Assembly (NCBI GenBank): GCA_016342645.1
Contig: JAEINX010000017.1
Location: 1-47,647, forward strand
Reading direction: 5' to 3'
Origin: Bacteroidales bacterium
Lineage (GTDB): Bacteria > Bacteroidota > Bacteroidia > Bacteroidales > JAEINX01
DNA length: 47,647 nt
Part shown: positions 6,101-22,849 of the stretch, in pieces
Position numbering within the stretch: the first letter of the stretch is position 1
How the letters are laid out: every line of letters starts with the position of its first letter
Made by a program: the position numbers and the translations under genes
Notes under the pieces: generated by a model
The model's database searches: none
What the model saw: the letters and a program-made list of their open reading frames with translations, nothing else
What the model was told of the DNA's origin: nothing

Positions 6101-6979
6101 CAGCCACATTTTATCATGGGAATCAAGAAAATATTTTGCAACATCATTTTCTCGTTTTTTGGTGGAATCGTTTTCGTCTGACATATAGATATAAAATTGA
6201 TCGGTTTTAGGATCAAAACTGTAAATTCCCATAAATCGGCCACCAAGCCATAAAATACCGTTTTTATCTTTATATAAGTCATGGTAGAAATATGTATCCG
6301 CCATTGTAGGTACTTGGTGATGATATATTGTTGATGTTTTCAGCAGACAATTATATTTAATCAGTTCACCCTTAACAGTTTCTATCCATAAAATATTATT
6401 TTCATCAGGTAAGATGGCTCTGATGTAATTGTTTATCTCAACCAAATCGCCATCATCATTTTTGCGAGCAACATTTTCAAACGAATCATTATTTCGGTTA
6501 TATAAATTGAGGCCCTTGCGGGTTCCTATCCATAATCCCCCACCTGAATCTTCTTTCAAGCAAGTAACAAGATTATCTGCGATTGAAGCAGAATCTTCGG
6601 CAAAGTGTTTATATTGTTTTATTTTGTAGCCATCGTAACGATTTAGGCCATCAATAGTTGCAATCCATAAGAAGCCATAATTGTCTTGTAGAATATCAAG
6701 AATATAATTACTGCTTAGTCCATTTTTTTTGGTCAGACGATCGAATTTTATATATGGATCCTCCGTTATTAAGGTTTTATTGTTTGTAAGCTTCTCTTCT
6801 TGATTTATTTTATTTTCAGTGATTTTTATTGATTGTTCAGCTTCCATAGAAAGTAAACTTAGAATAGCTTTGTTTGAATTTTCATATGCTCCAAGAGTCA
6901 AAAAATTAAAAACCAGTAGAAAGACAAAGGCAACTCTTATAAATTTATATTCGCAAACAATAACTTTGAAATCTACCAT
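3152..6979 (-). CDS. Two-component propeller sensor histidine kinase (LytS-type)
   Basis: 1275 residues. A signal peptide or anchor at the N-terminus (VAFVFLLVFNFLTLG, about 16-31) is followed by some 14 or more reg_prop propeller strands, each with a W-I/L/V-G/A-T core (for example GFLWIATIDGLNRYDG, GGLWIGTRKGLNLY, GKIWVGTTDKGLNQI). These would form two seven-bladed propellers. A Y_Y_Y domain (near 925-1010) leads to one membrane helix at about 1025-1047, then a His_kinase domain with the phosphoacceptor H1074 in MNPHFIFNSL. The ATPase domain has FIENSIEHG and IQDNGIGI. Unlike Bacteroides hybrid sensors there is no receiver or AraC part at the C-terminus, so a separate regulator is needed; the LytTR gene at 1778 fits. 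The ligand is probably extracytoplasmic. Upstream is the long hairpin at 7060, which should insulate it from the surface-protein operon. Confidence 0.93.
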   Translation of the reverse strand: MVDFKVIVCEYKFIRVAFVFLLVFNFLTLGAYENSNKAILSLLSMEAEQSIKITENKINQEEKLTNNKTLITEDPYIKFDRLTKKNGLSSNYILDILQDNYGFLWIATIDGLNRYDGYKIKQYKHFAEDSASIADNLVTCLKEDSGGGLWIGTRKGLNLYNRNNDSFENVARKNDDGDLVEINNYIRAILPDENNILWIETVKGELIKYNCLLKTSTIYHHQVPTMADTYFYHDLYKDKNGILWLGGRFMGIYSFDPKTDQFYIYMSDENDSTKKRENDVAKYFLDSHDKMWLAGIDGLYTLNTKTEIFTKIFPTSTFSIVEDKNKKLWFGTGAGIYVYDLLNYSFTFMNKNDNNPNSLIHDHINKIYIDNAQNVWIGTIEGISIYKPSKNKFRHIYHITGDERTPISSNTTALLQLKTDEIWIGTDNSGIDCMNDDFIKNDCYNYSKQGKNKINSNRISVLAQDTDGDVWAGQWSGRGFNIINPVTHAVKSYSFLKNSFKADWYNDIFEDSKGNFWLGIWGAQGLYQFDKKRGTFKDQTYLIKNIFPSGPIKNLAFDGDYVWIGLQNQSIFIALNPKTKKIANYLKNNYSSYDFNRILKIYNAHNGDVWFQTNKGVFHKQNNPYISIIPVNNFPELSFLSSNLEIPFQKSNYKIDTVISKVIDQEGDIWIGTFKGLFRIRDNKVIHSYSVKSHQGLISDTIWSMAFVPPNQLWLGTEKGFCELNIGTEKFDAFVFDPRQYLSSHLIKCIAEDENGKIWVGTTDKGLNQIDPLTQKVKQFNSDLNNDNSFWGDLVNCIYIDKIGTVWIGGHGLNKYNQDSDSFIHFTETDGLADNGVMSIQEDEDGMLWIATLNGLSVFDPVNKTFQNYYEKDGLQDNEFTNANCKLKSGELLFGGKNGINVCDPSKLFINNKPPKLAITAFSVFDEEKDIDTTHSKPIELKYNENYFSFEYTALDFSNPEHIQYAYKLENADKDWIFTDAVNRTAKYTNIDPGNYRFKLRGSNGDGTWSESTTFIDLIIKPPFWKTIWFIILEVLFLFIIIIIIVKYREKKIIEKNQFQLLEQKLLRSQMNPHFIFNSLSSIQSFIFENNPLEAGSYLSRFAELIRSILYNSREEFITIEKEIKTLQNYLDLQQLRYDNKFDYKLNIDPLIQTDLIQIPPMLAQPFIENSIEHGIKHLKGKGFISISCTLMPEKNSILLIIQDNGIGIKASRKLENEKSKNHTSLATIIANERLDIFNKGLKKKQFIMEINDIKDDDGKVNGTKVKFIIPFRKL

Positions 6980-7131: not shown

Positions 7132-9747
7132 CTAATTAATCACAATCTTCTCAACCTTAGATAAACTCCTTCCTGTAAAGCTTATAAAATAAACTCCTGC
7201 TGGCAAATCTTGTAAGTTAATTTGTTTTGTTGTAAATCCTGTAATTCCTGTGAATTCTACATTGCGATATTCATTTCCGGTTAAATCGAATACTTTGCAT
7301 TGTAAATCTCCTCTTACTTTTTCTAATGAAATATTAAATATTCCATCGGAAGGGTTTGGATAAATTGTTAATGATGAATAATTGATATCATTATCCGATA
7401 TTCCTGTAATAGAAAAGTTTAACATGCTGTATTCTCCATCAATTTCGGGGAAGGTTTCTTCCATATATGCACTTCCGTAAGGATTTATATAAATATAATC
7501 TGCTAAGAGAACTTCTTCTTGTCCATTTTTACTCCAAATTTTAAAAATAGGATAATTACCGTTTTCATATAAATTACTGAAAACCGGAATAGAGTTTTCA
7601 AAAATATTCTCCGAAATTACAATTCCTGCTCCTACAAGTGTTTCTTCATCAAAAACTCCAATTTCATCACCTATATTTAAAGCTCCCTGTTCAAAATAAA
7701 TTGTCCAGACCGGATCATAAGGATTGCCATCAATAACTTTAAAATGTTCAGGTATTGAGGTTTTTAATGCCATAAAATTATCTGATGCTTCAGGATAAAT
7801 AAGCAAATCATCTGCACTCATTTTTACAAGATAACCTTCACCGGGCTGCATATCTCCAATTCCATTTACCCAAATTGGCCCGATTTTTCGGAACATTAAA
7901 CCTGTTGTGTTTCTTACAAAATCCAGGTTATCTAAAACATCTGCAAATGCATCATTTGTGTTTACAGGAAATTCGGGGAGAAAACTGATCATCTGATAAC
8001 CGTTGATCAGGTCAATCGGTGTTTGCGGGTCAATTGCTTCACCGCTGATTGTTAGTTCATCATCGGAATTCATTTTGAATAAATATCCTTCGGTTGTTAC
8101 CCAATTTCCAATTCCATTAACCCACATTGGTCCGATTTTCCTTAACATCAATCCGGCTGTATTTCGAACAAAATCAAGGCTTTCAAGATTTTCAGATAAA
8201 ACACTCATCATATTTTGATTTTCGGGAATAAGCCTCGTTGAAATAAATTGATATCCTTCTTGCAGAAAATAATCCTGAGTTTGGGTTGAAGAAACGTTAA
8301 AATGAACAATAAACCTATCAGGATCATCCTCGGGATTTGCCGTAAAATTATAAATTGGAGTTTCATTTAAATTGATTGTTGTTCCAAGTAAAACATCTTC
8401 CAAAATGATATTTGCTTCTATGAAACTTTCCATTTCGCTTGCTGTTATTGTGTAATTTCCTGATTCAACAATATTGTAAGACAATGGAACTGAAATTCCG
8501 TTATCTAAAAGGATGTTTGGTAAAGTGTTAATTGCCAATCCAAATTCTTCGGAGGTTTTGGAAAAAAGTTGATTAACATTGTTATTCAAAATGAATTTAT
8601 AAGCATCAAATTCGCTATCGAATGATTGAGTTGCATTTTCGTTAAAACAAATTATTGTTTCATCACTGAATACTCCGCCTTCAGCAGATAATCTTAGAAA
8701 GTTAATTTCAGGGTAATTATAACCAGGTTCGGCATGATGAAGCCTTGCTGAATTATCCAAAGAAAATGTTCCTATATTTCCTGGTGAGTCAACTTTTAGG
8801 AAAAAACCTTGTCCACCACGAATATACTGAGTTGCTCCATTTATGTTTGATCCTCCTTTTAAATAAATCGAAAAATCACCAAGGCCACCGTTCAAAGTAT
8901 TATCCCAAAAATAAAAAGCATTGCCGAGATTCGTTAAAGTAACGCCCGGGCTTTCTATGTCAATTAATGAAGGAAATGGATTTCCAACGAGATTAAAGCC
9001 ATCATAATTGGGCGACGAGTTTTCGGTGTATGTTAATCCGGTGATAGTTTTAGTTCCGCTAAAAAGATTTCCTGTATAGTTTATCGTTGTATTTTCCATT
9101 AACGAGGCTGCATATCCTTGCAAGCCGCTTAAAGGTTCATAAGGATCAACAATTGGCTCAAAATTACTAATTGTTTCATTATATTTCCAAAGCATTCCTC
9201 CTGCAAATATTTCTGAAAGAACTCCTTCTGCCTGTGGAGAAACATAATGCCAAACATCTTCTCCACCTGTAAGATATTGCTCGACTGTAAATATTCCGTA
9301 CCCGCTGATTATTCCATTATCAAGCAATGAGCCTGTTCCATTTTCATCTGATTTAATTATGAAGTTTCCATAATTTGTAAACTCATTGTTTAATGTTAAT
9401 TCTATTTCGGGATTAACATTAAAAGTTCCATATAATATTTCAAGGCTTCCGTTACAATTCAGGTTGCCGTTTAATTCAAGTTCGTTTGAATACTTTTCTA
9501 CAAGCATATTATTAAAAGTGTTAGTACCTTCAATGCTTTGGTTATCTGCACCGGAAAATTTAATTGTTCCTTCGCCGAGATCAAGTTCCGAATTATTATT
9601 TTTCCAATCTCCATGAACATTTATATATGATCCTGTACTTACTTTAATAGTTGTATTATCTTTTGTTACCCATTGGGCTTTTGCTTCTTGTAAATTCCAG
9701 CTCAACATCAATAAGAAGATTAGCTGGAGGCTTATTTTCATTTTCAT
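7132..9747 (-). CDS. T9SS-exported surface protein with paired WVNGIG modules
   Basis: 871 residues. A signal peptide (about 1-24, ending AKA-QW) is followed by a stacked-strand region rich in N, G and L (25-150) and a beta-rich middle. Two modules of about 80 residues then follow (roughly 498-580 and 585-660), each with VRNTxGLMxRKIGPxWVNGIG and an EGYLxKM ending. Next is a domain with WTIYFEQGALNIGDEIGVFD (about 685-790), and finally a type A T9SS sorting tail (IYPNPSDGIFNIS to GVYFISFTG, last 75 residues). The same module order recurs in the proteins at 40967 and 45282. It is the last gene of the operon, 4 bp after the S74 fibre gene (TAA-agtt-ATG region). ATG-AAA-ATG offers two starts; the first is used. 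Its function is not known; adhesion or matrix binding is a guess from context. Confidence 0.88.
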   Translation of the reverse strand: MKMKISLQLIFLLMLSWNLQEAKAQWVTKDNTTIKVSTGSYINVHGDWKNNNSELDLGEGTIKFSGADNQSIEGTNTFNNMLVEKYSNELELNGNLNCNGSLEILYGTFNVNPEIELTLNNEFTNYGNFIIKSDENGTGSLLDNGIISGYGIFTVEQYLTGGEDVWHYVSPQAEGVLSEIFAGGMLWKYNETISNFEPIVDPYEPLSGLQGYAASLMENTTINYTGNLFSGTKTITGLTYTENSSPNYDGFNLVGNPFPSLIDIESPGVTLTNLGNAFYFWDNTLNGGLGDFSIYLKGGSNINGATQYIRGGQGFFLKVDSPGNIGTFSLDNSARLHHAEPGYNYPEINFLRLSAEGGVFSDETIICFNENATQSFDSEFDAYKFILNNNVNQLFSKTSEEFGLAINTLPNILLDNGISVPLSYNIVESGNYTITASEMESFIEANIILEDVLLGTTINLNETPIYNFTANPEDDPDRFIVHFNVSSTQTQDYFLQEGYQFISTRLIPENQNMMSVLSENLESLDFVRNTAGLMLRKIGPMWVNGIGNWVTTEGYLFKMNSDDELTISGEAIDPQTPIDLINGYQMISFLPEFPVNTNDAFADVLDNLDFVRNTTGLMFRKIGPIWVNGIGDMQPGEGYLVKMSADDLLIYPEASDNFMALKTSIPEHFKVIDGNPYDPVWTIYFEQGALNIGDEIGVFDEETLVGAGIVISENIFENSIPVFSNLYENGNYPIFKIWSKNGQEEVLLADYIYINPYGSAYMEETFPEIDGEYSMLNFSITGISDNDINYSSLTIYPNPSDGIFNISLEKVRGDLQCKVFDLTGNEYRNVEFTGITGFTTKQINLQDLPAGVYFISFTGRSLSKVEKIVIN

Positions 9748-9751
9748 AACT

Positions 9752-11011
9752 TTATTTTTTATTTGTTTCTAATTGTTCAATACGTGCTTTTAATTCTTCA
9801 ATTATTTTCTGCTGCTCCTGAATTGCTTTTACCAGGGGAACTGTAAATTGTGCATAACGCAAACCATAGTAATCGGATTCATTTTGCGGTACATCGATTC
9901 CACTAAACTCAAATCCAAGGTTTTTAGCAGCTTGCTCAACTTCTTGTGCAATAAATCCGCTTTCAATTATTTGAGCTTTTTCATTAGTCTTTTCGTTCTC
10001 ATCTCTATCTAGAAATTCATCAATTGAATTTTTATCAAGTTTGTAAGTTACAGGTCGAAGATTGAGGATAAAATCAAGGCCTGCAACATTTTCTTGAATA
10101 TCTGTTTTAAATCTTCCGTCTGATAAAGTTGTCCAATCCACTTGCCCGCCAATGCTTGACACATTTGAATTTCCAATACGAACCTGATTTGAAGCAGTTA
10201 CAATAGATCCGTTTCCAATTGCGGTTGAGTTTTCAAGGGCTTCGGTTGCTACATCAGCATTATATCCTAAAGCAGTATTATAGCTTCCGGAAACATTTGT
10301 AAGCATTGTATGTTTACCAATTGCGGTATTTCTATTTCCTTCGGTACTATTAACAAGTGAACTCTCACCAAATGCAGAATTACCCTCACCTGTATTTAAA
10401 TAGAGAGAATTCATACCGACTGCAACATTAAAACTTCCACTCGAATTAAAGGGCATAACACCTTGTCCAATAGCGACATTACCATCGCCTACAGTATTAC
10501 CATGTCCTGCAAAAGAACCGATAAATACATTTCTATTAATTGGTAAGTTAGTATTTACTCCGGCACCTTCGCCAATAAATACCGAGTAACCATTGTCCAG
10601 AGCTTCGAGTGTGTTGCCTGAGAATCTCCATTTTTCTATTCCATTAATATATATTCTTATAGTATCTTCATCGTAATTTTGCTCGGTAGTGATATAAGTA
10701 TCATTGTCAGCATCAGAAATTGAATTATTGTTTGCATCATTAATAATCTCCACCCAGTCTGCCAGCATATTATTATAATACCAGAAACTTTCTGTTTCAA
10801 TATCGTAAACCAGTAAACCGCCTTGTGTTGTTCCAATTGCATTACGCTCGGAAGTTGAAACCCTTGGTACCAAAAATCCTTTATCGAAACTCGAAAGGTC
10901 GAGAATAGCTGAGGGATCAGGATCAGCACCTGTTTCATTTATTGCAACCTGTGAGAAGGTTACGCTTGTTAAAACTGCAAGCAAAACTGTTAGTAAAATT
11001 GTTTTTTTCAT
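9752..11011 (-). CDS. Fibre-like surface protein with C-terminal S74 auto-cleavage chaperone domain
   Basis: 419 residues. Signal peptide (1-20), then the N-module shared with two neighbours (QVAINETGADPDPSAILDLS, GFLVPRVS, FWYYNNMLADWVE), short YadA-head-like repeats (about 155-270: NVAVGMNSLYLNT, NTAIGKHTMLTN, NTALGYNADV), and a Peptidase_S74 / intramolecular chaperone domain from about 293. The motif LSDGRFK carries S297 and K302, the dyad used for self-cleavage in endosialidase and tail-fibre chaperones. A coiled coil ends the protein (IQEQQKIIEELKARIEQLE). In known members this domain trimerises a beta-fibre and is then cut off. The gene sits 11 bp after the 915-residue paralogue and 4 bp before the T9SS gene. 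The first 95 bp, including leader bases, are identical to that paralogue. How it crosses the outer membrane is unclear, as no T9SS tail is seen. Confidence 0.9.
   Translation of the reverse strand: MKKTILLTVLLAVLTSVTFSQVAINETGADPDPSAILDLSSFDKGFLVPRVSTSERNAIGTTQGGLLVYDIETESFWYYNNMLADWVEIINDANNNSISDADNDTYITTEQNYDEDTIRIYINGIEKWRFSGNTLEALDNGYSVFIGEGAGVNTNLPINRNVFIGSFAGHGNTVGDGNVAIGQGVMPFNSSGSFNVAVGMNSLYLNTGEGNSAFGESSLVNSTEGNRNTAIGKHTMLTNVSGSYNTALGYNADVATEALENSTAIGNGSIVTASNQVRIGNSNVSSIGGQVDWTTLSDGRFKTDIQENVAGLDFILNLRPVTYKLDKNSIDEFLDRDENEKTNEKAQIIESGFIAQEVEQAAKNLGFEFSGIDVPQNESDYYGLRYAQFTVPLVKAIQEQQKIIEELKARIEQLETNKK
10200..10560 (-). repeat. YadA-head-like repeats in the S74 fibre
   Basis: About six imperfect units of 16-18 codons with the pattern N-x-A-x-G-x-x-x-L-x-x-N-x-x-G. 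This is the shortest of the three repeat tracts in the operon. Confidence 0.6.
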
Positions 11012-11022
11012 TTTTGTAAGTT

Positions 11023-13770
11023 TTAATGTGTAACTTTATCAATTGTATATTCAATCTCAGCTCCATGTAATTGCCCGAAATCCAATTGGTCATGACCAAG
11101 AAATTTAGCTGTAATGTAGTAAAACCTTCCGTTGTTATCAATTGTTGCATAGCTTATGCTTGTGTCATCAAACTTTGAAATGTTAAAATAATTATATAGA
11201 ACATCATAACTTGCCATTATATCAGCAGATATTGACATCTCATCTTTTTTCCATAGCTTAACTTCAATCCACTCACCATCACATCTATAATAAATGCTGA
11301 ACCTGGTGACAATAGCTCCATCAGGCAGGCTGACAGGTGCTTTAATAGTTGATGTACCATTACCATCATCAGAGTCCATAAACCAGTAACCATTATCATT
11401 ATGAACCATTTTATCACCATCCTGGTTTGTAAACAGGCTAAAAGCTGCAGCAGGGATTTTTAAAATACAGGTTTTAGTTGATCCATATTTAAATTCGTCA
11501 GCTGTAATATCATCAGTTGCTACAATGTCATCACCAACTTCAAGATCATCGCTTATAACTGCTTTTCCTATTACTTCAAGTTTTTCACTTGGGGATTGTG
11601 TACCAATTCCAAGTTTTCCATTCACAGCTACAATATTAGATGAAAAATCTCCATAAATCAAAGGTGAAGCTGTGTTAGAATTGTCAATATATAGTTTATC
11701 GCTACCCTCTTCATTATACCCGGCATTACGACCCACAAAAACATTTCCACTACCTAATGCTTTATAACCTGCATAGCTACCAATAGCTGTATTATTATGG
11801 CCTTCAACATTTTTATATAATGCTCTATAACCATGTGCGGTATTTTCTCCACCTGTTTTGTTTAGAAACAGGGAAGACCTACCAAAAGCACTATTATTTA
11901 TACCTGTAGAATCAGAATATAATGCTAAAGTTCCAAAGGCAGAATTAGAAGCTCCATCTGTGATATGATATGCTGATTTAAATCCAAAAGCTGTGTTATC
12001 CATACCTGATGTGTTCATCGTTAAAGCAAAAGCACCCATTGCCGTATTATTATCAGCGTCCACGTTATGTTGCAAAGCATATGCTCCTACCGCGGTATTA
12101 TCCTTGCCTTCAGTATTCTCTATTAAGGACCCTATACCAATAGCTGTGTTTTGATTACCAAGAGTATTTGCATATAATGCTTTTGAGCCAACGGCAGTAT
12201 TTTCAGATCCATGTGTCGATAATGTGCCGCCAAATCCATTACTCATCAAAGCCGAATCACCAATTGCAACAATGTTATGCTGGTATGTACTTCTGAAAAG
12301 AGCTTTTGTACCGAGAGAAGTGTTTGAATATCCTGTTGTATTGTAGTATGATGCTCTATAACCAACAGCCACATTATTAGCTCCCATGGTATTGGCGCTA
12401 AGAGAATTGACACCAAAAGCTGTATTTTTATTACCATTGATATTTCCAGCAAGGGCTTTGTAACCTGTTGCAGTATTACATGTTCCTTCTGTATTTTCTT
12501 TAAGTGATTCTATTCCCAAAGCAGTATTAAAGTTATTTCCATTATCATTTATTCCTGCATCCATGCCAAGAAATATGTTAGAAGCATTAGTTTTTGCATC
12601 CGATAAATCATTGATTGATTCAACTCCCGGAGATACAGTTTCCCATGCTGCCAAACCTTCTTCATCGGAAGTAAGTACTTTTCCAACACCGGGATTGCCA
12701 CCGCTAATTTTAATTGTACCATTGATATCAACCTGGTCAGTTGAGAAATCACCACCAATAAGGGGTGTTGGAGTATCAGTAACATCAATAAAGAGTTTAT
12801 TGTTACTTGTATTTTGCGAACCGGCTGAGACTCCTATAAAAATACAATCGGAAACACTTGGTCCACCAAAAGAACCACGGCCTGCAAAAGCACCAATTGC
12901 AGTATTTCTTATGCCCGTCTCATTATTTTCATTTGCAGATTTCCCAATTGAGGTATTTGCAAAACCTGAGGTAATTGCACGGCCTGACTGATGGCCAATT
13001 CCTGTATTATTATTACCTGTTGTAAATGTGCCGGCCTCGTCACCTAAATAAACAGTGCTGCTAAAGGCTATTCCGTCACTCAGACCGTTAATATCAGAAG
13101 CATAAATCGTTGGGATTTCCCAGCTTGCAATACCCATAGCATCAGAAACCAATACTTTGCCAGATCCCTGATTTCCATCTGTCATCCTGATTGAACCATT
13201 TACATCAAGTTTAGCTGCCGGGCTACTTGTACCGATACCTATTTCTCCAGTTTCATGTTCTATAACAATGTCATCACGGTTGGTTGTTGAACCACTAATG
13301 GAAGCCCAATTTGCTCCGTTACTAAATATTAATGCATTACCGTAATAATTATCATCATGGATCTTTACAATGTTTTCCCAATAACTTCCAACAACCTCAA
13401 AAGGTACGTCAGGCGAACTTGTTCCAATACCCACATTTCCTGAAACGGAACTATACATATTATCACCTACAACAATCCAGTCGCTGTCAGCACCGCCACC
13501 TGACATTTCAACCCAATTGGCCAGCATATTATTATAATACCAGAAACTTTCGGTATCAATGTCATAAACTAATAAACCGCTTTGAGTTGTGGCTATTGCA
13601 TTACGCTCGGCGCTTGAAACCCTTGGTACCAAAAATCCTTTATCGGTACTTGATAGGTCGAGAATGGCTGATGGATCGGGATCAGCACCTGTTTCATTTA
13701 TTGCAACCTGTGAGAAGGTTACGCTTGTTAAAACTGCAAGCAAAACTGTTAGTAAAATTGTTTTTTTCAT
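11023..13770 (-). CDS. Long fibre-like surface protein with about 15 YadA-head-like repeats
   Basis: 915 residues. Signal peptide and N-module (1-88) are nearly identical to the genes at 9752 and 16372. Residues 89-200 are shared with the 738-residue paralogue (DNMYSSVSGNVGIGTSS, YWENIVKIHD, IEHETGEIGIG). A tract of about 15 units of 17 residues follows (about 410-690; NTAxGxxALxxNTxGxx), interrupted by one longer unit (AIGDSALMSNG...THGSE) also present in the paralogue. The C-terminus (about 760-915; ILKIPAAAFSLF, GYWFMDSDDGNG, YYRCDGEWIEVKLWKKD) is a separate beta-rich domain that I do not recognise; it has no S74 or T9SS signature. A trimeric beta-helical stalk with a binding tip is a reasonable model. 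It starts 50 bp after the propeller gene and is in the same transcription unit. Confidence 0.88.
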   Translation of the reverse strand: MKKTILLTVLLAVLTSVTFSQVAINETGADPDPSAILDLSSTDKGFLVPRVSSAERNAIATTQSGLLVYDIDTESFWYYNNMLANWVEMSGGGADSDWIVVGDNMYSSVSGNVGIGTSSPDVPFEVVGSYWENIVKIHDDNYYGNALIFSNGANWASISGSTTNRDDIVIEHETGEIGIGTSSPAAKLDVNGSIRMTDGNQGSGKVLVSDAMGIASWEIPTIYASDINGLSDGIAFSSTVYLGDEAGTFTTGNNNTGIGHQSGRAITSGFANTSIGKSANENNETGIRNTAIGAFAGRGSFGGPSVSDCIFIGVSAGSQNTSNNKLFIDVTDTPTPLIGGDFSTDQVDINGTIKISGGNPGVGKVLTSDEEGLAAWETVSPGVESINDLSDAKTNASNIFLGMDAGINDNGNNFNTALGIESLKENTEGTCNTATGYKALAGNINGNKNTAFGVNSLSANTMGANNVAVGYRASYYNTTGYSNTSLGTKALFRSTYQHNIVAIGDSALMSNGFGGTLSTHGSENTAVGSKALYANTLGNQNTAIGIGSLIENTEGKDNTAVGAYALQHNVDADNNTAMGAFALTMNTSGMDNTAFGFKSAYHITDGASNSAFGTLALYSDSTGINNSAFGRSSLFLNKTGGENTAHGYRALYKNVEGHNNTAIGSYAGYKALGSGNVFVGRNAGYNEEGSDKLYIDNSNTASPLIYGDFSSNIVAVNGKLGIGTQSPSEKLEVIGKAVISDDLEVGDDIVATDDITADEFKYGSTKTCILKIPAAAFSLFTNQDGDKMVHNDNGYWFMDSDDGNGTSTIKAPVSLPDGAIVTRFSIYYRCDGEWIEVKLWKKDEMSISADIMASYDVLYNYFNISKFDDTSISYATIDNNGRFYYITAKFLGHDQLDFGQLHGAEIEYTIDKVTH
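11730..12535 (-). repeat. 51-bp-period tandem repeat coding a YadA-head-like stalk
   Basis: About 15 units of 17 codons with consensus N-T-A-x-G-x-x-A-L-x-x-N-T-x-G-x-x. The units have diverged in DNA sequence but keep length, except for one longer unit near the middle. Tracts like this can gain or lose units by recombination with each other or with the tract at 16805-17410. Confidence 0.8.
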
Positions 13771-13820
13771 TTTAGTAGTTTTTAATTAACATTAATAAAA
13801 ATATAATTATTATTTGCTGT

Positions 13821-16370
13821 CTATCTATCTATTCCACATTCACCTATTTGAACATTTAACTTATTTCCCTGTTCTGCAACAAATCCGGGCCTCAGGTCGA
13901 TAAATTCTCCTGCCTGATAATATACATCGGTTCCTGCTCCCCCAACAATATGCCGTGTAGAAATTATGGAGTCTTGAGCTGTATAAACCTGAATTCCCGT
14001 AAACCCTGGAATACTCGGATCAGTTTGGTTTGTCAGATGATAACTTACAGGACAATCGGAACCAAAAGTAGAAACCCAAAGGCCTCTGCCATAAGTTGCA
14101 GCATAAATCAAGTTATCTTTAGAATTTATTTCCAATTCATGAACCATTACAGCCGGAAGCCCTGTGCTAAAATAGCTCCAATATTCTTCTCCGTTTTCCC
14201 TATTGAAAACGCCTATGTCGGTACCAATAAACATTGAGTTAGGAACTTCAGGATCAAGGGCAATGCAACTAACGGGTATATTTTCCAGGTTATAGCTTAC
14301 GTTTACCCAGTTATCGCCACTGTTCCAGCTTTCAAAAACTTTATTACCATCATCATAACCTCCAAGAGTTACAACAAAATGCGTTTCATTGGTTGGATCA
14401 ATCACTACATCTGTTATTGAATAAATATCTAATGGCAACCCACCTCCAATGTTTGTCCATGTATTTTGCCCTGTGAATAATGTAGTTGTAATCCATAAAT
14501 CATCAACCGAAAATGGTTCTATGTTTCCCCGGCTTGCAGCAAGCATAAGATTTTCATTTGTGGGAGAAATATCCATGGCTTTAACAAACTGGAGATCGTT
14601 CATAGGGATGACTTTATTAAAATCAAAACTTCCATCTAAGTAAAAAATAAGGATTTCACCTGCTTTGGCTGAAATAAGGCGGTCATTTGATACAGGCCTA
14701 AGGAGCAAAGGATTATTAAATAATTTATTGTGTGTATTGGTAATAATAGCATCAAAAGTAACTCCTCCGTCATTTGAAACCTCAATTATTCCATTTTGTC
14801 TCGAAGTAAATATATGATCAGGATTATCCGGCATGATAATACATTCGAGCCCGTCAGCTCCTCTAACATGTTCTACATTGGTACTTCCCGAATATTTGTT
14901 AACTCCATTATCCTGAGTTCCCATATAAACAAGATTAGTATTTGAGGTAGTAATCCCTATTTTATGGGGTTGCATAATTCCTAATCCAAAAGAAATATCT
15001 GACCAGCTTGTCCCCATATCGGTTGATTTAAACAAACCACCATCGCATCCGGAATATAAATCGTTTCCATTAAATATTAATTCATGAATATCGGCATGTA
15101 CATAGGCGAGTGTATCCCAATCGTCTCGCCACTGAGTTATTGCTGACCATTGATGTCCACGATAATCAGATTTCCAGATGTTGATTCCTCCAACGAAAAC
15201 CACATTCTCATCAGTTGGTGACACCTCAATTGCAAGATCATAACTTGCCTGAGTAGAATTACCAAATCCAAAAACATTAGAGGATAAAATATTAGGATGA
15301 AACGGCTGATAATAGCTTAACCAGTTTTGACCTCCGTTTTCGCTAAAAAAAACACCCCTGAAGTTATCTTTATCTCCCAATACTGCATACACAATGTGTG
15401 AATTAACAGGAGTTACAGCAAGTTCTATTCTGGTTCTTTCTGTCATATTTCCGGAGAAATTCCTTAATGACACCCAAGTATATCCTCCATCTGATGACCT
15501 GAATATTGAATTTTCAGTTGAAGCAAAAACAGTATCATTATCAACAGGATTAAATTCCACATCGTAAAATTCACCGCTTTCTACTTTTGGCCAAGTAACA
15601 CCGGCATTATTTGTATAATAAATTCCATCACTGCTTGTAGCAATGATATTATTACTATTTGCAGGATCCATTTTCAATTCAGTACCAAAAACAACATCAT
15701 CCCTATCGAAAGTTAAACCTGTTTGATTCCATGTAATTCCACCGTCAGTAGATTTCAAAACACCGATGCTTACCAAATCATCAGAATCACCATCGCCGGT
15801 TAAAATATAAACTGTATTAGGATCACTATGACTAACAACAATACCGGATATTGCCAAATTAATCAGATCATCAGTCATACAGGACCAGGTAATTCCCCCG
15901 TCAGTGGTTTTCCATAAACCTCCTCCGGCAGATCCTGCATAAATAATATCAGGATTCGTTGGATGAAAGGCTACCTCATTTATTCTGCCATTTCCGGGAT
16001 TCCACCCGCCCTGATCGGTTTCAGGATAAGGGTCAGGGTTATTTGTCCATGTATCAGGGCCTAATTCTGCCCATGATCCTGAATCAGTTTGTCCGCTTAT
16101 TACCCCTCCTTTTCTTTTCAAATTTTCATAGGCAATAAATGACATAGCACTGTTATTTAATCTTTTGCCATCCTTATCGAGCCTGTATTCAACAAAATTT
16201 TCCCATCTTTTAAATTGCTTATATCCCGTTCCTTTTCCTTTGTCTTTGTTCTTGTAGCGTTTCTCAGTTTCTCGTACAATTTTACCAAAATCTTTATTGT
16301 CAATAGATTGCTGGGCATTACTAAACAAAAACAAGAAAGTTATTATTATAATTAAACTAAGTTGTTTCAT
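13821..16370 (-). CDS. Exported BNR/VPS10-like beta-propeller protein
   Basis: 849 residues. Signal peptide (1-19, ending SNA-QQ), then many Asp-box/BNR blades of the form S-T/x-D-G-G-x-T-W (GGLWKTTDGGITW, VLKSTDGGITW, IFRSSDGGYTW, LFKSTDMGTSW), as in sortilin/VPS10 and sialidase-like propellers. The catalytic Arg triad of sialidases is not evident, so a binding or scaffold role is more likely than glycosidase. The C-terminus (about 775-849) has the DVYYQAGEFIDLRPGFVAEQ pattern of the short three-strand stack found at the C-termini of Bacteroidota exported proteins. It starts 1 bp after the stop of the 738-residue fibre gene (TAA-A-ATG), so the two are almost certainly translated together. 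The function is inferred only from the fold. Confidence 0.85.
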   Translation of the reverse strand: MKQLSLIIIITFLFLFSNAQQSIDNKDFGKIVRETEKRYKNKDKGKGTGYKQFKRWENFVEYRLDKDGKRLNNSAMSFIAYENLKRKGGVISGQTDSGSWAELGPDTWTNNPDPYPETDQGGWNPGNGRINEVAFHPTNPDIIYAGSAGGGLWKTTDGGITWSCMTDDLINLAISGIVVSHSDPNTVYILTGDGDSDDLVSIGVLKSTDGGITWNQTGLTFDRDDVVFGTELKMDPANSNNIIATSSDGIYYTNNAGVTWPKVESGEFYDVEFNPVDNDTVFASTENSIFRSSDGGYTWVSLRNFSGNMTERTRIELAVTPVNSHIVYAVLGDKDNFRGVFFSENGGQNWLSYYQPFHPNILSSNVFGFGNSTQASYDLAIEVSPTDENVVFVGGINIWKSDYRGHQWSAITQWRDDWDTLAYVHADIHELIFNGNDLYSGCDGGLFKSTDMGTSWSDISFGLGIMQPHKIGITTSNTNLVYMGTQDNGVNKYSGSTNVEHVRGADGLECIIMPDNPDHIFTSRQNGIIEVSNDGGVTFDAIITNTHNKLFNNPLLLRPVSNDRLISAKAGEILIFYLDGSFDFNKVIPMNDLQFVKAMDISPTNENLMLAASRGNIEPFSVDDLWITTTLFTGQNTWTNIGGGLPLDIYSITDVVIDPTNETHFVVTLGGYDDGNKVFESWNSGDNWVNVSYNLENIPVSCIALDPEVPNSMFIGTDIGVFNRENGEEYWSYFSTGLPAVMVHELEINSKDNLIYAATYGRGLWVSTFGSDCPVSYHLTNQTDPSIPGFTGIQVYTAQDSIISTRHIVGGAGTDVYYQAGEFIDLRPGFVAEQGNKLNVQIGECGIDR

Positions 16371-16371
16371 T

Positions 16372-18588
16372 TTACTTTGTCTTTTCGATTAATTGATCAA
16401 TTAGCTTTTGTTGTTCAATGATGTACAATGTTAATTCTTCGATTTTTTCCATCAAAAGCCTTTGTGTTTCTCCTATTTCCAAACCTGAATTGCTCATTTC
16501 TGAAGCTGACGGAATATTTGGTAAATGACCATTCTCATTAATAAATTCTTCCACTTCATCTAAAGGCATAAGTTTATAATCCTTTTTAAAAACATAATCG
16601 GGCCAATCTTCTTGCATGTCAACTCTAAGTTCCTCGCAAATTATTTTACCATCAACCGATAGTTTGTATCCGCTGGCAAAAGTGGTTCCAATTGCCACAT
16701 CTCCATTAATACTCAGGATATTTGAACTAAAATCTCCATAAATTAAGGGTGTGTCGGTTGAGGAATTAGAAATATAAAGTTTATTACTTCCTTCTTCATA
16801 CAAACCAGCCTCATGTCCAACAAAAATATTCCCTGAGCCTAAAGTATTAAAACCTGCGTGTCGTCCGATTGCTAAGTTATTACTACCTGTTTCATTGGAA
16901 TACAGACTCATTGAACCAAGGGCTATGTTATTGTCTCCGGAAATATTTGAAAATGCAGAAATATACCCGAGAGCTGTGTTATTATCACCCTCAGTATTAT
17001 CGTTTAAGGAGGAGCAACCAACGGCAGTATTTAAACTTCCTTCAATATTAGATTTCATTGATTCATATCCTAAGGCAATATTGCTTCGTCCAATTGTATT
17101 TGAATACATAGCTTTTGAACCCAGGGCAGTATTTCTTGTACCGTGGCTTTGCATGCTGGCGTTAAGTCCATTGTTAAAAAGGGCTGAATCACCGATTGCT
17201 ACCAAATTTGACCTGTCGGTATTTTTGTAAAGACTCCGAATACCAAGAGCCACATTTGAATTTCCTGTTTCGTTTGAATATAAGGCGGCATAACCAATTG
17301 CTGTATTTGCGTTTCCGCTTTCATTTTCAAACAATGAATAAGTTCCAAAAACTGCATTTCTTATACCGGAAATATTATGATTAAAGCTAAATTGCCCTGC
17401 ACTTGTATTATAATTACCACCATCATCATTAACTCCTGAACTGCTTCCAAGAAAAAGGCTGTAACCATCAGTTTTAGCGTCGTTTAAATCATCAATTTCC
17501 TGAACTCCAAGCGGAATATTTTCCCAGGAACCCAATCCATTTATATCAGATGTCATAACTTTTCCTGTTCCAGGATTTCCACCGGTAATTTTAATTTGTC
17601 CGGCAACTTCAAGTTTAGCTTCGGGAGTGATGGTTCCTATACCAACATTTCCGGAGTATGCATTTACTAATAGTTGAGGTGTGCCGGCAGTACTTCCAAC
17701 AGAAAAGCCTTTTGCATTTTCCGACCAAATATAGGCCGGTGTCATATCTTCCTCCTCATCACTAAGAAGCTTAATGTATGCATCTTCATATTGTGAAATA
17801 AGAGAAAGGTTTCCGTTACGCACATGTAGTTTTGAACTTGGATTAGATGTTCCAATCCCTACATTGCCTGAAACAGAACTGTAAATATTGTCACCTGAGA
17901 TTGTCCAGTCATTATCCGGCGTTGTACTTAAATCAGCCCATGAGGCAACTCCAAGGGCATTCGACATCATTACTCTTCCTGCGGCTTCATTACCATCAGT
18001 CATTCTGATTGAGCCATTAACATCAAGTTTGGCAGAAGGATTATGCCTGCCTATACCGATTTCTCCTGACAAATGCTCAATAACGATATCGAGGCGGCTA
18101 CCTGTTGATCCGCAAATTGAAGCCCAATTTGGCCCACTACTAAAAAACAAGGCATTACCATTATAACTATTATCGTGGATCTTTACAATGTTTTCCCAAT
18201 AACTTCCAACAACCTCAAAAGGCGTATTAGGAGAATTCGTTCCGATACCCACATTTCCCGAAACCGTACTATACATATTGTCACCTAAAACAACCCAATC
18301 GTTGTCTGCTCCTCCACCGGACATTTCAACCCAAGCGGCAATCATATTATTGTAATACCAGAAACTCTCTGTATCTATATCATAAACCAATAAACCACTT
18401 TGGGTCGTTCCAATTGCATTCCTTTCGGCGGTTGAAACCCGCGGTACAAGAAATCCTTTATCGGTACTTGAAAGGTCGAGAATTGCTGAAGGATCAGGAT
18501 CAGCACCTGTTTCATTTATTGCAACCTGCGAGAATGCTACACTTGCAAACATTATTATTAAAAATGCAAGTAAAATTGTTTTTTTCAT
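16372..18588 (-). CDS. Fibre-like surface protein with HLPNIPSA-type C-terminal tail
   Basis: 738 residues. Signal peptide, then the shared N-module (QVAINETGADPDPSAILDLS), a second shared region (SYWENIVKIHD), repeated GNVGIGTxxP segments, and about ten 17-residue YadA-head-like units (about 390-600). The C-terminus differs from both paralogues: DWPDYVFKKDYKLMPLDEVE, then ENGHLPNIPSASEM and a coiled coil (LLMEKIEELTLYIIEQQKLI). This tail is widespread at the ends of fibre-like proteins in Bacteroidota and probably trimerises or anchors. It follows the 79-codon small ORF by 10 bp and precedes the propeller gene by 1 bp. No T9SS tail is visible. Confidence 0.88.
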   Translation of the reverse strand: MKKTILLAFLIIMFASVAFSQVAINETGADPDPSAILDLSSTDKGFLVPRVSTAERNAIGTTQSGLLVYDIDTESFWYYNNMIAAWVEMSGGGADNDWVVLGDNMYSTVSGNVGIGTNSPNTPFEVVGSYWENIVKIHDNSYNGNALFFSSGPNWASICGSTGSRLDIVIEHLSGEIGIGRHNPSAKLDVNGSIRMTDGNEAAGRVMMSNALGVASWADLSTTPDNDWTISGDNIYSSVSGNVGIGTSNPSSKLHVRNGNLSLISQYEDAYIKLLSDEEEDMTPAYIWSENAKGFSVGSTAGTPQLLVNAYSGNVGIGTITPEAKLEVAGQIKITGGNPGTGKVMTSDINGLGSWENIPLGVQEIDDLNDAKTDGYSLFLGSSSGVNDDGGNYNTSAGQFSFNHNISGIRNAVFGTYSLFENESGNANTAIGYAALYSNETGNSNVALGIRSLYKNTDRSNLVAIGDSALFNNGLNASMQSHGTRNTALGSKAMYSNTIGRSNIALGYESMKSNIEGSLNTAVGCSSLNDNTEGDNNTALGYISAFSNISGDNNIALGSMSLYSNETGSNNLAIGRHAGFNTLGSGNIFVGHEAGLYEEGSNKLYISNSSTDTPLIYGDFSSNILSINGDVAIGTTFASGYKLSVDGKIICEELRVDMQEDWPDYVFKKDYKLMPLDEVEEFINENGHLPNIPSASEMSNSGLEIGETQRLLMEKIEELTLYIIEQQKLIDQLIEKTK
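16805..17410 (-). repeat. 51-bp-period tandem repeat in the first fibre gene
   Basis: About ten units of 17 codons of the N-x-A-x-G-x-x-x-L-x-x-N-x-x-G type (NTAIGYAALYSNETG, NTALGSKAMYSNTIG, NTAVGCSSLNDNTEG). One longer unit (AIGDSALFNNG...) occupies the same place as in the 915-residue paralogue. Confidence 0.75.
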
Positions 18589-19019: not shown

Positions 19020-20711
19020 ATGCTCAGATCAATATTTTTTACTATAAACATACTTTTATTTGTTACATTAAGCTTTTCAGAAGAAATAGAAGAAAATCAG
19101 GTTGACTCATTATTAAGAGGTAAAGCTTTCATGGAGCAGGAAAAAACTCTGGATTCCCTGATTAGCAGATATAATTTTTCGAATCCAAGTATTGGTTTAA
19201 AACTATCCAGGCGATATAATGATCTAATAAAGAGCTCAGAAAAAATGTATTATCATGGGAAAAGTAAATATAATCTTGGTTTGGCTTATGAAATGATGGG
19301 AGAATTTAAAAAAGCACTGGAATATCTTTTTGAAGCAAAAAAAATATTTACAGGCACAAAATACACCAAAAACCTGGCTCTTGTTTACAATGAAATTGGT
19401 ATGGTATATTTAAATCAACCTAATAAGAAATTACTTGAAAAATCTCTTGATTACTTCTTTATGTTTCTGAAATTTTCACAAAAAATGGATGATCCTATGG
19501 AAATTGCAGGAGCTTATTCCAATATCGGATTAACCTATAATAGAATGAATATGTTGGATTCCGCATTGTTTTATCATGAAAAATCATTAGAGATCAGGCT
19601 CGAATTAAATGACAAAAGGTGTATTGGAATATCATATGCAAACTTAGGTGAAATTAATCAACAAAACGGAAATTACAATAAAGCCCTGTCTTATCTGCAA
19701 AAAACGCAATCAAATTACGAAACAATTAACTATCGCTGGGGAATGTATGAAGCCTATATCGATATTGCCAACATCTTTCTCAAACTAAATCAATTTGATT
19801 CTTCTAAACTATATAGTTTTAAAGCATTGGATGTTAGCAGAGAACTGAATAGCAAATTTGCTATACAAACTACTTGTTCCTTATTGGGAGAGTATTACAA
19901 AGCCGTTCATGATTTTGAAAATGCTGTAAAATATATTGGATTATCAAATCTTTATACTGATTCAATCAATTCGGAAAGCACAAGAAACAAAATGGTTCAA
20001 ATGCAAACCATTTATGAAGTAGATAAAAAAAATCAGGAAATTGAGTTACTAGAAGAGAAAAATAATTCGAAACAACGGTGGGTGGTTACTATCATAATTT
20101 CAGGCTTTTGTATTATACTCATTTTTGTTTATGCACTAATAATTAACAGATCCAAACGAAAAAAGGAAATTTTGCTTTTTAAAACAGAAAAGAAACTTAG
20201 CAAAAAAAATGAAGATTTGATCAAAAGCAAGCTTGAACAAAGTGAACTCAAAGAACAAGAACTCAATAACGAAATTAAATATAAATCAAAACAATTAAGT
20301 ACTCATGCCCTCCACATGATACAGAAAAACACAATTCTTCAGGAAATTCAAAATGAAGTCAAAGACCTTTCAAAGAAAGCAAATGCTAACGAAAAACCAC
20401 GATACAAAAGAATTAGCCACCAAATTAATCAAAGTTTAAGAGCTGATAATGACTGGGATGTTTTCAGACTATATTTTGAAGATGTCAACAAGAATTTCTT
20501 TAGCTATTTAAAAAGTATCAATTCTGATCTCACAACTAATGACTTAAGATTATGTGCATTAGTAAAATTAAATATGAATAGTAAAGAAATGGCTTCGGTC
20601 TTGAATATTGCTCCCAACAGTATTAAAAGTGCAAGATACCGTCTAAAGAAAAAACTTGATCTGGACATTGAAGCTGATCTTGAAGAATTTATTAGAAAAA
20701 TTGAAAAATAA
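19020..20711 (+). CDS. TPR - membrane - helix-turn-helix regulator (first copy)
   Basis: 563 residues. Signal peptide or anchor (about 1-20), then TPR repeats (about 60-310; ALEYLFEAKKIF, GAYSNIGLTYNRMNMLDSAL, GISYANLGEINQQNGNYNKA). One membrane helix follows (VTIIISGFCIILIFVYALII, about 353-372), then a charged coiled coil (375-430), a conserved stretch (STHALHMIQKNTILQEI), and a C-terminal LuxR-like helix-turn-helix (about 500-563; MNSKEMASVLNIAPNSIKSA). The layout suggests sensing outside the membrane and DNA binding inside, as in many Bacteroidota TPR/HTH proteins. It is divergent from the surface operon and close to its repeat-bearing control region, so it is a natural candidate regulator. 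The effector is unknown. The ATG at 19020 fits the promoter. Confidence 0.9.
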   Translation: MLRSIFFTINILLFVTLSFSEEIEENQVDSLLRGKAFMEQEKTLDSLISRYNFSNPSIGLKLSRRYNDLIKSSEKMYYHGKSKYNLGLAYEMMGEFKKALEYLFEAKKIFTGTKYTKNLALVYNEIGMVYLNQPNKKLLEKSLDYFFMFLKFSQKMDDPMEIAGAYSNIGLTYNRMNMLDSALFYHEKSLEIRLELNDKRCIGISYANLGEINQQNGNYNKALSYLQKTQSNYETINYRWGMYEAYIDIANIFLKLNQFDSSKLYSFKALDVSRELNSKFAIQTTCSLLGEYYKAVHDFENAVKYIGLSNLYTDSINSESTRNKMVQMQTIYEVDKKNQEIELLEEKNNSKQRWVVTIIISGFCIILIFVYALIINRSKRKKEILLFKTEKKLSKKNEDLIKSKLEQSELKEQELNNEIKYKSKQLSTHALHMIQKNTILQEIQNEVKDLSKKANANEKPRYKRISHQINQSLRADNDWDVFRLYFEDVNKNFFSYLKSINSDLTTNDLRLCALVKLNMNSKEMASVLNIAPNSIKSARYRLKKKLDLDIEADLEEFIRKIEK

Positions 20712-20843: not shown

Positions 20844-20851
20844 TATATTTG
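20844..20851 (+). promoter_or_regulatory. -7 box of the second TPR-HTH gene
   Basis: TATATTTG fits TAnnTTTG perfectly. It overlaps an upstream in-frame TTG (20849), which therefore cannot be the start of translation. The ATG at 20870 lies about 12 nt after the likely transcription start. Confidence 0.5.
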
Positions 20852-20869
20852 ACAAAATTAATATGCCTT

Positions 20870-22849
20870 ATGAACCGAATTTTCGTACATTTATCTCAGA
20901 AAGTTTTTTTAATTCTTTTTGTTTTACTTGCAATAACATTATTTTCCTATTCAAATAAATCAGATAGCCTTAAATTAGTTTTGGAAAATCAGCAAGGAGA
21001 TGAAAGAATTTCAACTTTGATGCAATTAAGCAGGGAATTAAAAGCTCAGCCGGAAGAAAGCCTGAAGTTTGCTAAAGAAGCATATTCTCTTTCAGACAAG
21101 AACAATTATGAAGAAATTGCAGATATTAGTTACGTAATTGCCGACAAATATACTAAAATCAATATATTAGATTCAGCAGATAAGTATTATGGCGTTTCTT
21201 TATCAGCATATAAAATCCTTAAGGACACCTTAAATATAATGAGGCTTTCAACAATAAAAGGTTATTACCTTCAAAGAATGGGACTTAATAAAGAATCGGG
21301 CATACTCTTTAAAAACGGCATTGATTTATTTGGGCCATATTGGGAAACGCATGAAGGGGAAGCTCAAATAAGTAAAAAACATCTTGCCACAATGATGACA
21401 AATTATGGAATTTCATTATTCAATATTGGAAAATTTGATTCTTCCGTTTATTATCATACTGAGTCTTATAAAATTAAAGTTGAAATAGAGACATCACCAA
21501 AAAATATTGCAAAGGAAATGGTAAACATTGGCAATGTATATTCGGCAATGGATAAAAACATTGAAGCTATTAAATATTTTAACGAAGCTAATGAAAGTTT
21601 TATAGCTTTAGATGACAATTACAACATTGGCAAGTGCTATAATAATATTGGATTAGCGTATAAAAGAATGGGTGATACAATAAAAGCAATTTCTAATTAC
21701 GAAGAATCACTTAATATTAGAAGAAAAACAAAAAACAAGAATGGAATAGCAACAAATTTAGCAAACCTTAGTAGCTTGTATTTCGGGATTGGTGAAACGA
21801 AAAAAGCCGAAAATGCATTGTTAGAATCATTGGAGTTAAGCAAAGAAATCAATAATAAACAACTTATTTCCTTAAGCATACATAATCTTGCAAACATTTA
21901 TTTTAAAACTAAACTTTATAAAAAAGCCCTTGAGTATGCCCATGAAGCAAACGAAATAATTCTTGAGACTAATGAAATGACTTTATTGGAAAAAAACTAT
22001 AGTTTACAATCAAAGATTTATGAAGCACTAGGTAATTATAAACTATCGTTAGAATTCCTTAAACTAAATACTGAAGTGCACGATAGCTTATTTAACGCCG
22101 ACAATACTCAGCGATTCAATGAATTGCAAACTGAATTTGAGACTGCACAAAAGGAAAAAGAAATTGAATTATTGAAAAAAGAACAAGAAAATCAAAAACT
22201 CGAATATAAAATACTTAAAAACAGACAGCACACCTATTTTATTGTGATAGTACTTATTATAATTTTATTTGCTATTATTATTTTCGCTATTATTCTAAAA
22301 AGGAAAAAAGACCGACAAATACTGAAACAAAAGGAATTGTTCCATAAGAAAGAAAAAGAGCTTGCCGAAGCAGAACTTGAAAAGAGTAAACTAAAAGAAA
22401 AAGAACTGGAACAATCTGTACAGTATAAATCAAAACAACTAAGCACGCATGCCTTGCATATGATGCAAAAAAACACTATCCTTCAGGAGATTCAAGGCGA
22501 AATTTCGGATTTAAGAAAAAAAGCAGACATAAACGAAAAACCGCGTTACAAACAAATAAATCAACAAATAAACCAAAGTTTACGATCTGATAATGACTGG
22601 GATGTTTTCAAGCTTTATTTTGAAGAAATAAATAAAAATTTCTATGAAAAACTGAAAGAAATAAATCCCGAACTCACAACCAACGACCATAGGCTTTGTG
22701 CACTTATAAAACTTAATATGAACAGCAAAGAAATGGCTTCGGTATTGAACATTTCCCCTAATAGTATTAAAAGCGCCCGCTATCGTCTAAAGAAAAAACT
22801 TGGACTTGAAATGGAAGCTGATCTTGAGGAATTTATCAGGCAAATATAA
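20870..22849 (+). CDS. TPR - membrane - helix-turn-helix regulator (second copy)
   Basis: 659 residues from the ATG at 20870 (MNRIFVHLSQKVFLILFVLL). An in-frame TTG 21 bp earlier is rejected because it lies in the promoter. Signal sequence, TPR array (about 60-420; GKCYNNIGLAYKRMGDTIKA, GIATNLANLSSLYFGIGETK), membrane helix (FIVIVLIIILFAIIIFAIIL, about 457-476), coiled coil, then the same conserved C-terminus as the gene at 19020. From STHALHM onwards the two proteins differ at few positions, and the recognition region (MASVLNI-A/S-PNSIKSARY) has one change. The sensing halves have diverged much more. The two may read the same DNA site with different inputs. It has its own promoter and ends 65 bp before the convergent gdhA. 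Confidence 0.9.
   Translation: MNRIFVHLSQKVFLILFVLLAITLFSYSNKSDSLKLVLENQQGDERISTLMQLSRELKAQPEESLKFAKEAYSLSDKNNYEEIADISYVIADKYTKINILDSADKYYGVSLSAYKILKDTLNIMRLSTIKGYYLQRMGLNKESGILFKNGIDLFGPYWETHEGEAQISKKHLATMMTNYGISLFNIGKFDSSVYYHTESYKIKVEIETSPKNIAKEMVNIGNVYSAMDKNIEAIKYFNEANESFIALDDNYNIGKCYNNIGLAYKRMGDTIKAISNYEESLNIRRKTKNKNGIATNLANLSSLYFGIGETKKAENALLESLELSKEINNKQLISLSIHNLANIYFKTKLYKKALEYAHEANEIILETNEMTLLEKNYSLQSKIYEALGNYKLSLEFLKLNTEVHDSLFNADNTQRFNELQTEFETAQKEKEIELLKKEQENQKLEYKILKNRQHTYFIVIVLIIILFAIIIFAIILKRKKDRQILKQKELFHKKEKELAEAELEKSKLKEKELEQSVQYKSKQLSTHALHMMQKNTILQEIQGEISDLRKKADINEKPRYKQINQQINQSLRSDNDWDVFKLYFEEINKNFYEKLKEINPELTTNDHRLCALIKLNMNSKEMASVLNISPNSIKSARYRLKKKLGLEMEADLEEFIRQI

Follow-up and report, generated by a model that had tools for sequence, protein, structure and literature searches.

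What is built by a run of genes in which three proteins share one beginning, differ in stalk length and end in three different domains? This question is raised by positions 1 to 47,647 of a contig of a Bacteroidales bacterium (JAEINX010000017.1, assembly GCA_016342645.1), a stretch of 47,647 nucleotides that is called the window in the following. Five consecutive minus-strand genes encode, in transcription order, fibre A, a propeller protein, fibre B, fibre C and a protein with a sorting domain of the type IX secretion system (T9SS). With a probability of about 0.6, we read this operon as making a set of mosaic surface fibres similar to the mosaic adhesive trimers (MATs) of Bdellovibrio, in which fibre A, with its HLPNIPSA (HLP) tail, and the propeller protein, with its GCX_COOH (GCX) domain, form a dedicated pair. 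A first-pass annotation had located the three fibre open reading frames (ORFs) where we find them, all on the minus strand, and had described the propeller and the T9SS protein as interleaved with them. The propeller gene indeed lies between A and B, but the T9SS gene is the last of the run and falls outside the interval that had been assigned to the fibres. The idea of a multi-component fibre locus, in which stalks differ in length and in tip, is supported by the gene layout and by related clusters, and from these we infer a location at the cell surface.

Fibres and propellers in matched pairs

The three fibres share an N-terminal module (N-module). By this module, the nearest relatives of the locus are L051 (JALVZH010000018.1, a Bacteroidales metagenome-assembled genome (MAG); 85% identity) and L052 (DINQ01000011.1, Bacteroidales bacterium UBA5536; 72%). 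L053 (JABMPH010000283.1, a Bacteroidetes MAG) reaches 51%, and a closer copy in its genome, G687, 74% (L, G and C numbers are handles for loci, genomes and contigs). The first-pass annotation had suggested searching other genomes for the same gene order, and a related order was found in these three Bacteroidota genomes. With regulators set off by a double slash, the layout in the window is regulators // A(HLP)-propeller(GCX)-B-C(S74)-T9SS protein. The genome of L051 carries regulator // fibre(S74)-PROP2-fibre(G2-like)-propeller(DUF1565-like)-fibre(G2-like)-propeller(DUF1565-like) at L148. The genome of L053 carries fibre(S74)-PROP2-fibre(HLP)-propeller(GCX)-fibre(G2-like)-propeller(DUF1565-like) at L162, with a 167-aa regulator ORF beyond, and that of L052 carries regulator // PROP2-fibre(S74)-T9SS protein at L165. 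The PROP2 proteins are Ycf48-like propellers and begin with what reads as a lipoprotein signal. 'G2-like' serves purely as a label, since these tails stay below the Pfam cut-off for Peptidase_G2 (16.6 bits against 25 for the L162 fibre, no match for the L148 fibre). As judged from gene order, the clusters in these three genomes are new here. Scattered and unlinked homologues had been named as a finding that would speak against a common assembly; the homologues are scattered, yet they also co-occur in clusters.

Eight fibre-propeller pairs in the four genomes fall into three matched types without exception: HLP with GCX (window, L162), S74 with PROP2 (L148, L162, L165) and G2-like with DUF1565-like (twice in L148, once in L162). 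The first of these pairs was followed further. Collecting GCX propellers by propeller or N-module similarity, without regard to HLP, gave 13 distinct proteins (12 plus one from a separate locus set), two of them from genomes that belong to the class but not to the order (L108, L109). For all 13, an HLP gene lies just upstream with at most one plausible gene between; in three cases, an ORF of 161-193 aa was found there. A further GCX propeller in L132, a locus chosen for its GCX domain, likewise has an HLP gene upstream. Among 18 loci chosen for propellers without GCX, none has an HLP gene, and 16 have a T9SS sorting-domain match. Across 198 genomes, GCX_COOH was found at 114 listed places in 52 genomes, and the HLP profile at no fewer than 150 places in 72 genomes. 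For at least 48 of the 114 GCX places, a same-strand HLP lies no more than 10 kb upstream (median distance 2.4 kb), where about 0.3 would be expected for 4-Mb genomes and random placement. Among the HLP matches listed, opposite-strand HLP was seen upstream of none of the 114 places, and two places have another HLP downstream too. In the genome of the window, both HLP genes lie upstream of its only three GCX places. By gene neighbourhood, HLP-GCX is a conserved gene pair that holds well beyond the window cluster.

A more general and tentative reading is a tail code in Bacteroidota, in which the module that ends each fibre at the C-terminus (HLP, S74 or G2-like) would dock or escort a cognate large surface protein of its own type (GCX-tailed, lipoprotein propeller or DUF1565-like-tailed). 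We consider such a code possible, if somewhat doubtful. If it exists, HLP-GCX would be a widespread and unnamed two-partner surface assembly that does not depend on the N-module and uses mosaic fibres as its scaffold. In open-licence PMC papers, the literature covered here, no title or abstract start treats HLP tails or GCX domains, and GCX terms returned 0 papers. Small proteins of about 130-200 aa, often with a lipoprotein-like start, lie between or beside HLP and GCX genes in L128-L147 (e.g. L134, L138, L143), and they are a possible third partner. HLP tails also occur in other settings. The arrays L195, L196 (G194:C1:3694500-3722000) and L197 (G064:C18) encode secreted HLP proteins with lengths of about 260-390 aa (G194 has more than 20 of them), with diverse front parts and large RHS-like neighbours, a mirror image of the shared N-module. 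In viral contigs (L181-L190), HLP tails end large proteins that lack a signal-peptide-like start and are probably phage fibres.

A common N-module, three stalks and three tips

The first 88 residues of A, B and C had been described as almost identical, and pairwise comparison agrees: 76 (A/B), 74 (A/C) and 81 (B/C) of 88 residues are the same. The N-module proper comprises 67 residues (22-88) after a start that reads as signal-peptide-like in all three proteins, and is 90-95% identical among them. Over residues 22-88, dS amounts to 0.57-0.74 and dN to 0.05-0.06. Such a low ratio (omega 0.07-0.09) at this synonymous divergence means that the module has been kept by selection. As far as codon comparison can tell, the likeness is beyond chance and more than recent copying, and the module is under strong purifying selection. 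On the other hand, the first 92 nt are identical between B and C, apparently a tract of recent conversion.

In A, B and C, the N-module is named by neither Pfam nor NCBIfam. Matches were found in 23 of 60 genomes of the same order, with up to 57 in one genome, and at three further places on two contigs in the genome of the window. The module stands alone after the signal peptide, lies internally or occurs two to three times per chain, and its proteins include FISUMP, collagen-like, FG-GAP, S74 and HLP types. The tails of 117 non-redundant N-module genes, counted without loci covered by longer ones and without genes cut at the C-terminus, are S74 (49), FISUMP (9), HLP (6), G2-like (6), FG-GAP (4), NYKANY (4), B-type (1) and others (38); types other than S74, HLP and B-type were assigned by simple letter patterns. 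Judging from this distribution, the N-module is a widespread generic building block of Bacteroidota that can serve as a base without mixing of chains. Base and tail also have separate histories, because the S74 tail closest to that of C (62%) sits on a fibre that shares only 49% N-module identity with C. Among the fibres of the four genomes, N-modules are 70-95% identical, and the S74 tails of three of these fibres 52-66%. The cluster N-modules split into one subtype with S74, HLP and B-type fibres (70-95%) and another with G2-like fibres (72-75% mutual identity, 30-40% to the first). Genome G685 has 30 N-module matches, and many of these stand in tandem, two to four genes in a row, with S74, FG-GAP, NYKANY or G2-like ends (L150-L161). 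A relation to endo-beta-N-acetylglucosaminidase was considered and dropped, as the matches in PDB reached only E 0.07 or worse and were taken as chance.

Stalk repeats of 17 residues and of differing count had also been noted. By our count, the motif occurs at 14 positions in A, 21 in B and 7 in C, mostly with a spacing of 17. In an AlphaFold (AF2) model of A, the stalk is predicted as a regular beta-helix with one strand pair per 17 residues and a confidence score (pLDDT) of about 80-92 over most of it, and the N-module as a small alpha-beta domain (pLDDT about 76-85 over residues 51-90); most of residues 92-339 is modelled with low confidence. Helices are predicted in the tail at residues 676-686, 695-701 and 705-737, the last with 33 residues. 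Foldseek with this model gave no match in PDB at E 0.001 or better and 20 matches in BFVD. VIA-align of the Foldseek PDB list gave Z up to 16.6 over model residues 290-659, with many phage tailspikes and other beta-helix proteins as neighbours; it covers mainly the stalk, and the absence of PDB entry 8OND from it is uninformative.

The three C-termini differ as proposed: an HLPNIPSA coiled-coil tail in A, a beta-rich domain in B and S74 in C. Peptidase_S74 scores 44.9 bits in C against a curated cut-off of 22, and the SDxxxK motif was read directly (S297-DGRF-K302). The HLP tail of A has no Pfam match to S74, and an hhalign probability of 90.7 lies mainly over the coiled coil. Against PDB, its best hits were DNA polymerase I and GCN4 at E 0.46 and above, none of them meaningful, and no match was found in INPHARED phages. 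The C-terminal domain of B matched none of the families used here and nothing in phages, viral contigs or PDB, and its single-sequence AF2 model is poor (pLDDT 40.6) and beta-rich. Its sole credible relative among 295 genomes is in G109 (E 4e-9); a second same-order match (G070) lies in a PurH-like ORF and was set aside as chance.

Known fibres and competing readings

With phmmer, residues 238-360 of A (123 residues) match PDB 8OND (Bd2133) with E 2.9e-9. According to PMC10769870, this protein belongs to the MATs of Bdellovibrio bacteriovorus, which consist of a signal peptide, a conserved N-terminal domain, a stalk and S74 or other tips; 21 MATs are reported, and surface display was demonstrated by immunofluorescence (PMC10769870). 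In common with MATs, the fibres described here have predicted secretion, a conserved N-terminal domain, a beta-helical stalk, varied tips and several paralogues. At the C-terminus, C carries S74 with SDGRFK, and A and B have different non-S74 ends. In contrast to MATs, they occur in Bacteroidota and are clustered with propeller and T9SS partners and with regulators, and A ends in an HLP tail, of which the consulted parts of PMC10769870 make no mention. By architecture and by the homology of A, the fibres appear to be MAT-like, which is less than proven MATs. That no system with this gene order has been described, as the first-pass annotation supposed, agrees with the literature searched, but mosaic fibres with a shared base were already known. 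The gene order with matched propellers, the HLP-GCX pair and the association with regulators did not turn up in that literature.

Phage tailspikes and tail fibres with an S74 intramolecular chaperone (endosialidase, T5 pb1) are alike in the S74 domain with SDxxxK of C and in the beta-helix stalk. The present fibres differ from them in carrying signal peptides, in having no S74 match in A and B and in standing in an operon without virion genes. It is very unlikely that the operon encodes fibres of a domesticated or resident phage or of a contractile-injection tail. PHROG tail families do match A, B and C, and HLP tails occur in viral contigs, some on proteins without a signal-peptide-like start; but the starts of A, B and C are signal-peptide-like, the other genes of the operon encode a propeller and a T9SS protein, and the N-module gave merely three weak partial matches in the phage search and none in viral contigs. 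YadA-type trimeric autotransporters are alike in their repetitive N-x-A-x-G stalk and in the logic of stalk and tip; up to E 1, none of the three fibres matched a YadA head or membrane anchor. The first-pass annotation had suggested that the common N-module might bring A, B and C together in heterotrimers, which would give composite fibres of differing tips. One operon and N-modules so similar under purifying selection would fit such heterotrimers, but a generic module that can be internal or repeated in a single chain does not call for mixing, and the unrelated, different C-terminal domains favour homotrimers. S74 chaperones act on homotrimers, as in phage tailspikes, which counts against mixing as well. 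This proposal was not upheld, and we regard it as quite improbable. It also seems improbable that the shared 5' parts serve as a reservoir from which tails are recombined onto an expressed start, giving antigenic or phase variation. Although the 92-nt tract and the differing histories of N-module and tail point in this direction, the synonymous divergence of 0.57-0.74 outside the tract indicates that exchange is not frequent, and all genes are intact and co-directional.

Several observations weigh against MAT-like fibres with a dedicated partner. Neither an outer-membrane anchor nor a T9SS signal was found in fibres A, B and C, and PDB searches with B and with C gave no match. The MAT N-domain is reported to be beta-rich, to follow directly after the signal peptide and to have about 130 aa (PMC10769870), whereas the N-module, with 67 aa, is about half that size; in PDB, the Bd2133 chain begins only at residue 662 (PMC10769870). 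For the pair, 66 of the 114 GCX places lack HLP upstream among the matches listed, some of them at contig edges, as do 12 of the 52 GCX genomes altogether; GCX lies downstream of 47 of the 150 HLP tails listed. HLP proteins also form arrays, with more than 20 members beside RHS-like proteins and no GCX, so that HLP is not exclusive to GCX. The pairings S74-PROP2 (three genomes) and G2-DUF1565 (two genomes) may have been inherited together. The propeller might be an independent enzyme or adhesin and the adjacency of HLP and GCX a matter of shared regulation only, as GCX proteins without HLP neighbours would allow. Against this, HLP lies upstream on the same strand in all 48 linked places (among the matches listed) and beside 13 of 13 GCX propellers, compared with none of the 18 loci of other propellers. 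We consider an independent propeller unlikely.

For MAT-like fibres with a dedicated partner, the locus might work as follows. A, B and C would each be exported by the Sec route and fold, most likely as homotrimers, into a beta-helical stalk. Trimerisation would probably begin at the C-terminal module, which is the HLP coiled coil in A, the beta domain in B and the predicted self-cleaving S74 chaperone in C. As a common base, the N-module could retain or recognise all three fibres at the cell surface, with reach set by stalk length and the tip by the C-terminal module. The VPS10/BNR propeller would dock as the dedicated partner of A, and HLP- and GCX-tailed proteins probably form one surface assembly. 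The locus, which often carries a regulator with tetratricopeptide repeats (TPR) and a LuxR-like domain, would gain, lose and combine such cassettes of fibre plus partner.

Gene layout, regulators and meaning

The features of the run and its surroundings are collected in Table 1. From the coordinates, the gaps between neighbours are 1 nt (A-propeller), 50 nt (propeller-B), 11 nt (B-C) and 4 nt (C-T9SS protein).

Table 1. Positions of the fibre operon, its domains and nearby regulators in the window (HTH, helix-turn-helix)
Feature	Position	Strand	Remarks
Fibre A, 738 aa	16372..18588	-	signal peptide, N-module, GNVGIGTxxP segments, 17-residue stalk, HLP coiled-coil tail
N-module of A, residues 22-88	18325..18525	-	
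Stalk of A, about residues 377-606, 17-residue beta-helix	16771..17460	-	
HLP tail of A, residues 661-736	16381..16608	-	
VPS10/BNR propeller protein, 849 aa, GCX_COOH at end; putative partner of fibre A	13821..16370	-	Sortilin-Vps10 E 5.7e-22; GCX_COOH E 8.4e-9
GCX_COOH (3-coathanger stack) domain of propeller	13836..13985	-	
Fibre B, 915 aa; same N-module as A and C, longest stalk, beta-rich C-terminal domain without assigned family	11023..13770	-	
N-module of B, residues 22-88	13507..13707	-	
C-terminal domain of B, residues 757-915	11026..11502	-	one credible relative in 295 genomes
Fibre C, 419 aa; same N-module as A and B, short stalk, S74 chaperone/autoprotease (predicted)	9752..11011	-	Peptidase_S74 E 1.5e-11; SDxxxK read directly
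N-module of C, residues 22-88	10748..10948	-	
Peptidase_S74 match of C, residues 297-366	9914..10123	-	begins at SDGRFK motif
T9SS cargo, 871 aa, C-terminal sorting domain, last gene of run	7132..9747	-	Por_Secre_tail E 2.6e-13
TPR + HTH (LuxR-like) regulator 1, divergent from fibre A	19020..20711	+	
TPR + HTH regulator 2, paralogue of regulator 1	20849..22849	+	74% over C-terminal 170 residues
Reg_prop/Y_Y_Y/His_kinase sensor, downstream; possible regulator of locus	3152..6979	-	same architecture beside second N-module locus L032
LytTR response regulator, downstream	1778..2524	-	

The type A sorting domain of T9SS cargo, Por_Secre_tail, was found in the last protein of the run and in none of A, B, C and the window propeller. 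Around residues 481-801 of this last protein, two similar stretches of about 80 residues and a further domain recur widely; searched without its tail, the protein gave 167 matches in its own genome, mostly to this part and some with internal stops. A second locus of the same genome, L032 (G000:C16), holds two N-module proteins with G2-like ends and an 82% identical paralogue of the T9SS protein. It also carries a TPR-LuxR regulator of the same family and a Reg_prop kinase with a LytTR regulator of the same architecture as the pair in the window, and it ends with a propeller ORF of at least 2990 aa.

TPR-LuxR regulators were found in 11 of 48 fibre loci and in none of 47 loci for which a propeller or GCX was the selection criterion (Fisher p 5e-4), a contrast that was defined after seeing the data. 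The 48 fibre loci were drawn from 71 by requiring a stalk together with an N, S74 or HLP match; L032 and L041 carry the regulator but fall outside this definition and were not counted. Three regulator genes in the genome of the window (L101-L103) have no N-module or stalk gene nearby in the stretch examined. LytTR response regulators occur in 9 of 71 loci chosen by N-module or stalk or from G685-7 and in none of the 47 others, an association that is suggestive only. Fibre loci often stand with a TPR-LuxR regulator, and these regulators may control them.

If our reading holds, the design known from the prey-binding fibres of Bdellovibrio extends to Bacteroidota in which T9SS cargo is present as well. 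The reading would name a partner gene for one class of fibres and would bear on the way in which fibres present or retain large surface proteins. Both the unannotated N-module and the HLP tail are common in the order searched, and the fixed pair of fibre and propeller points to a modular construction of the cell surface.

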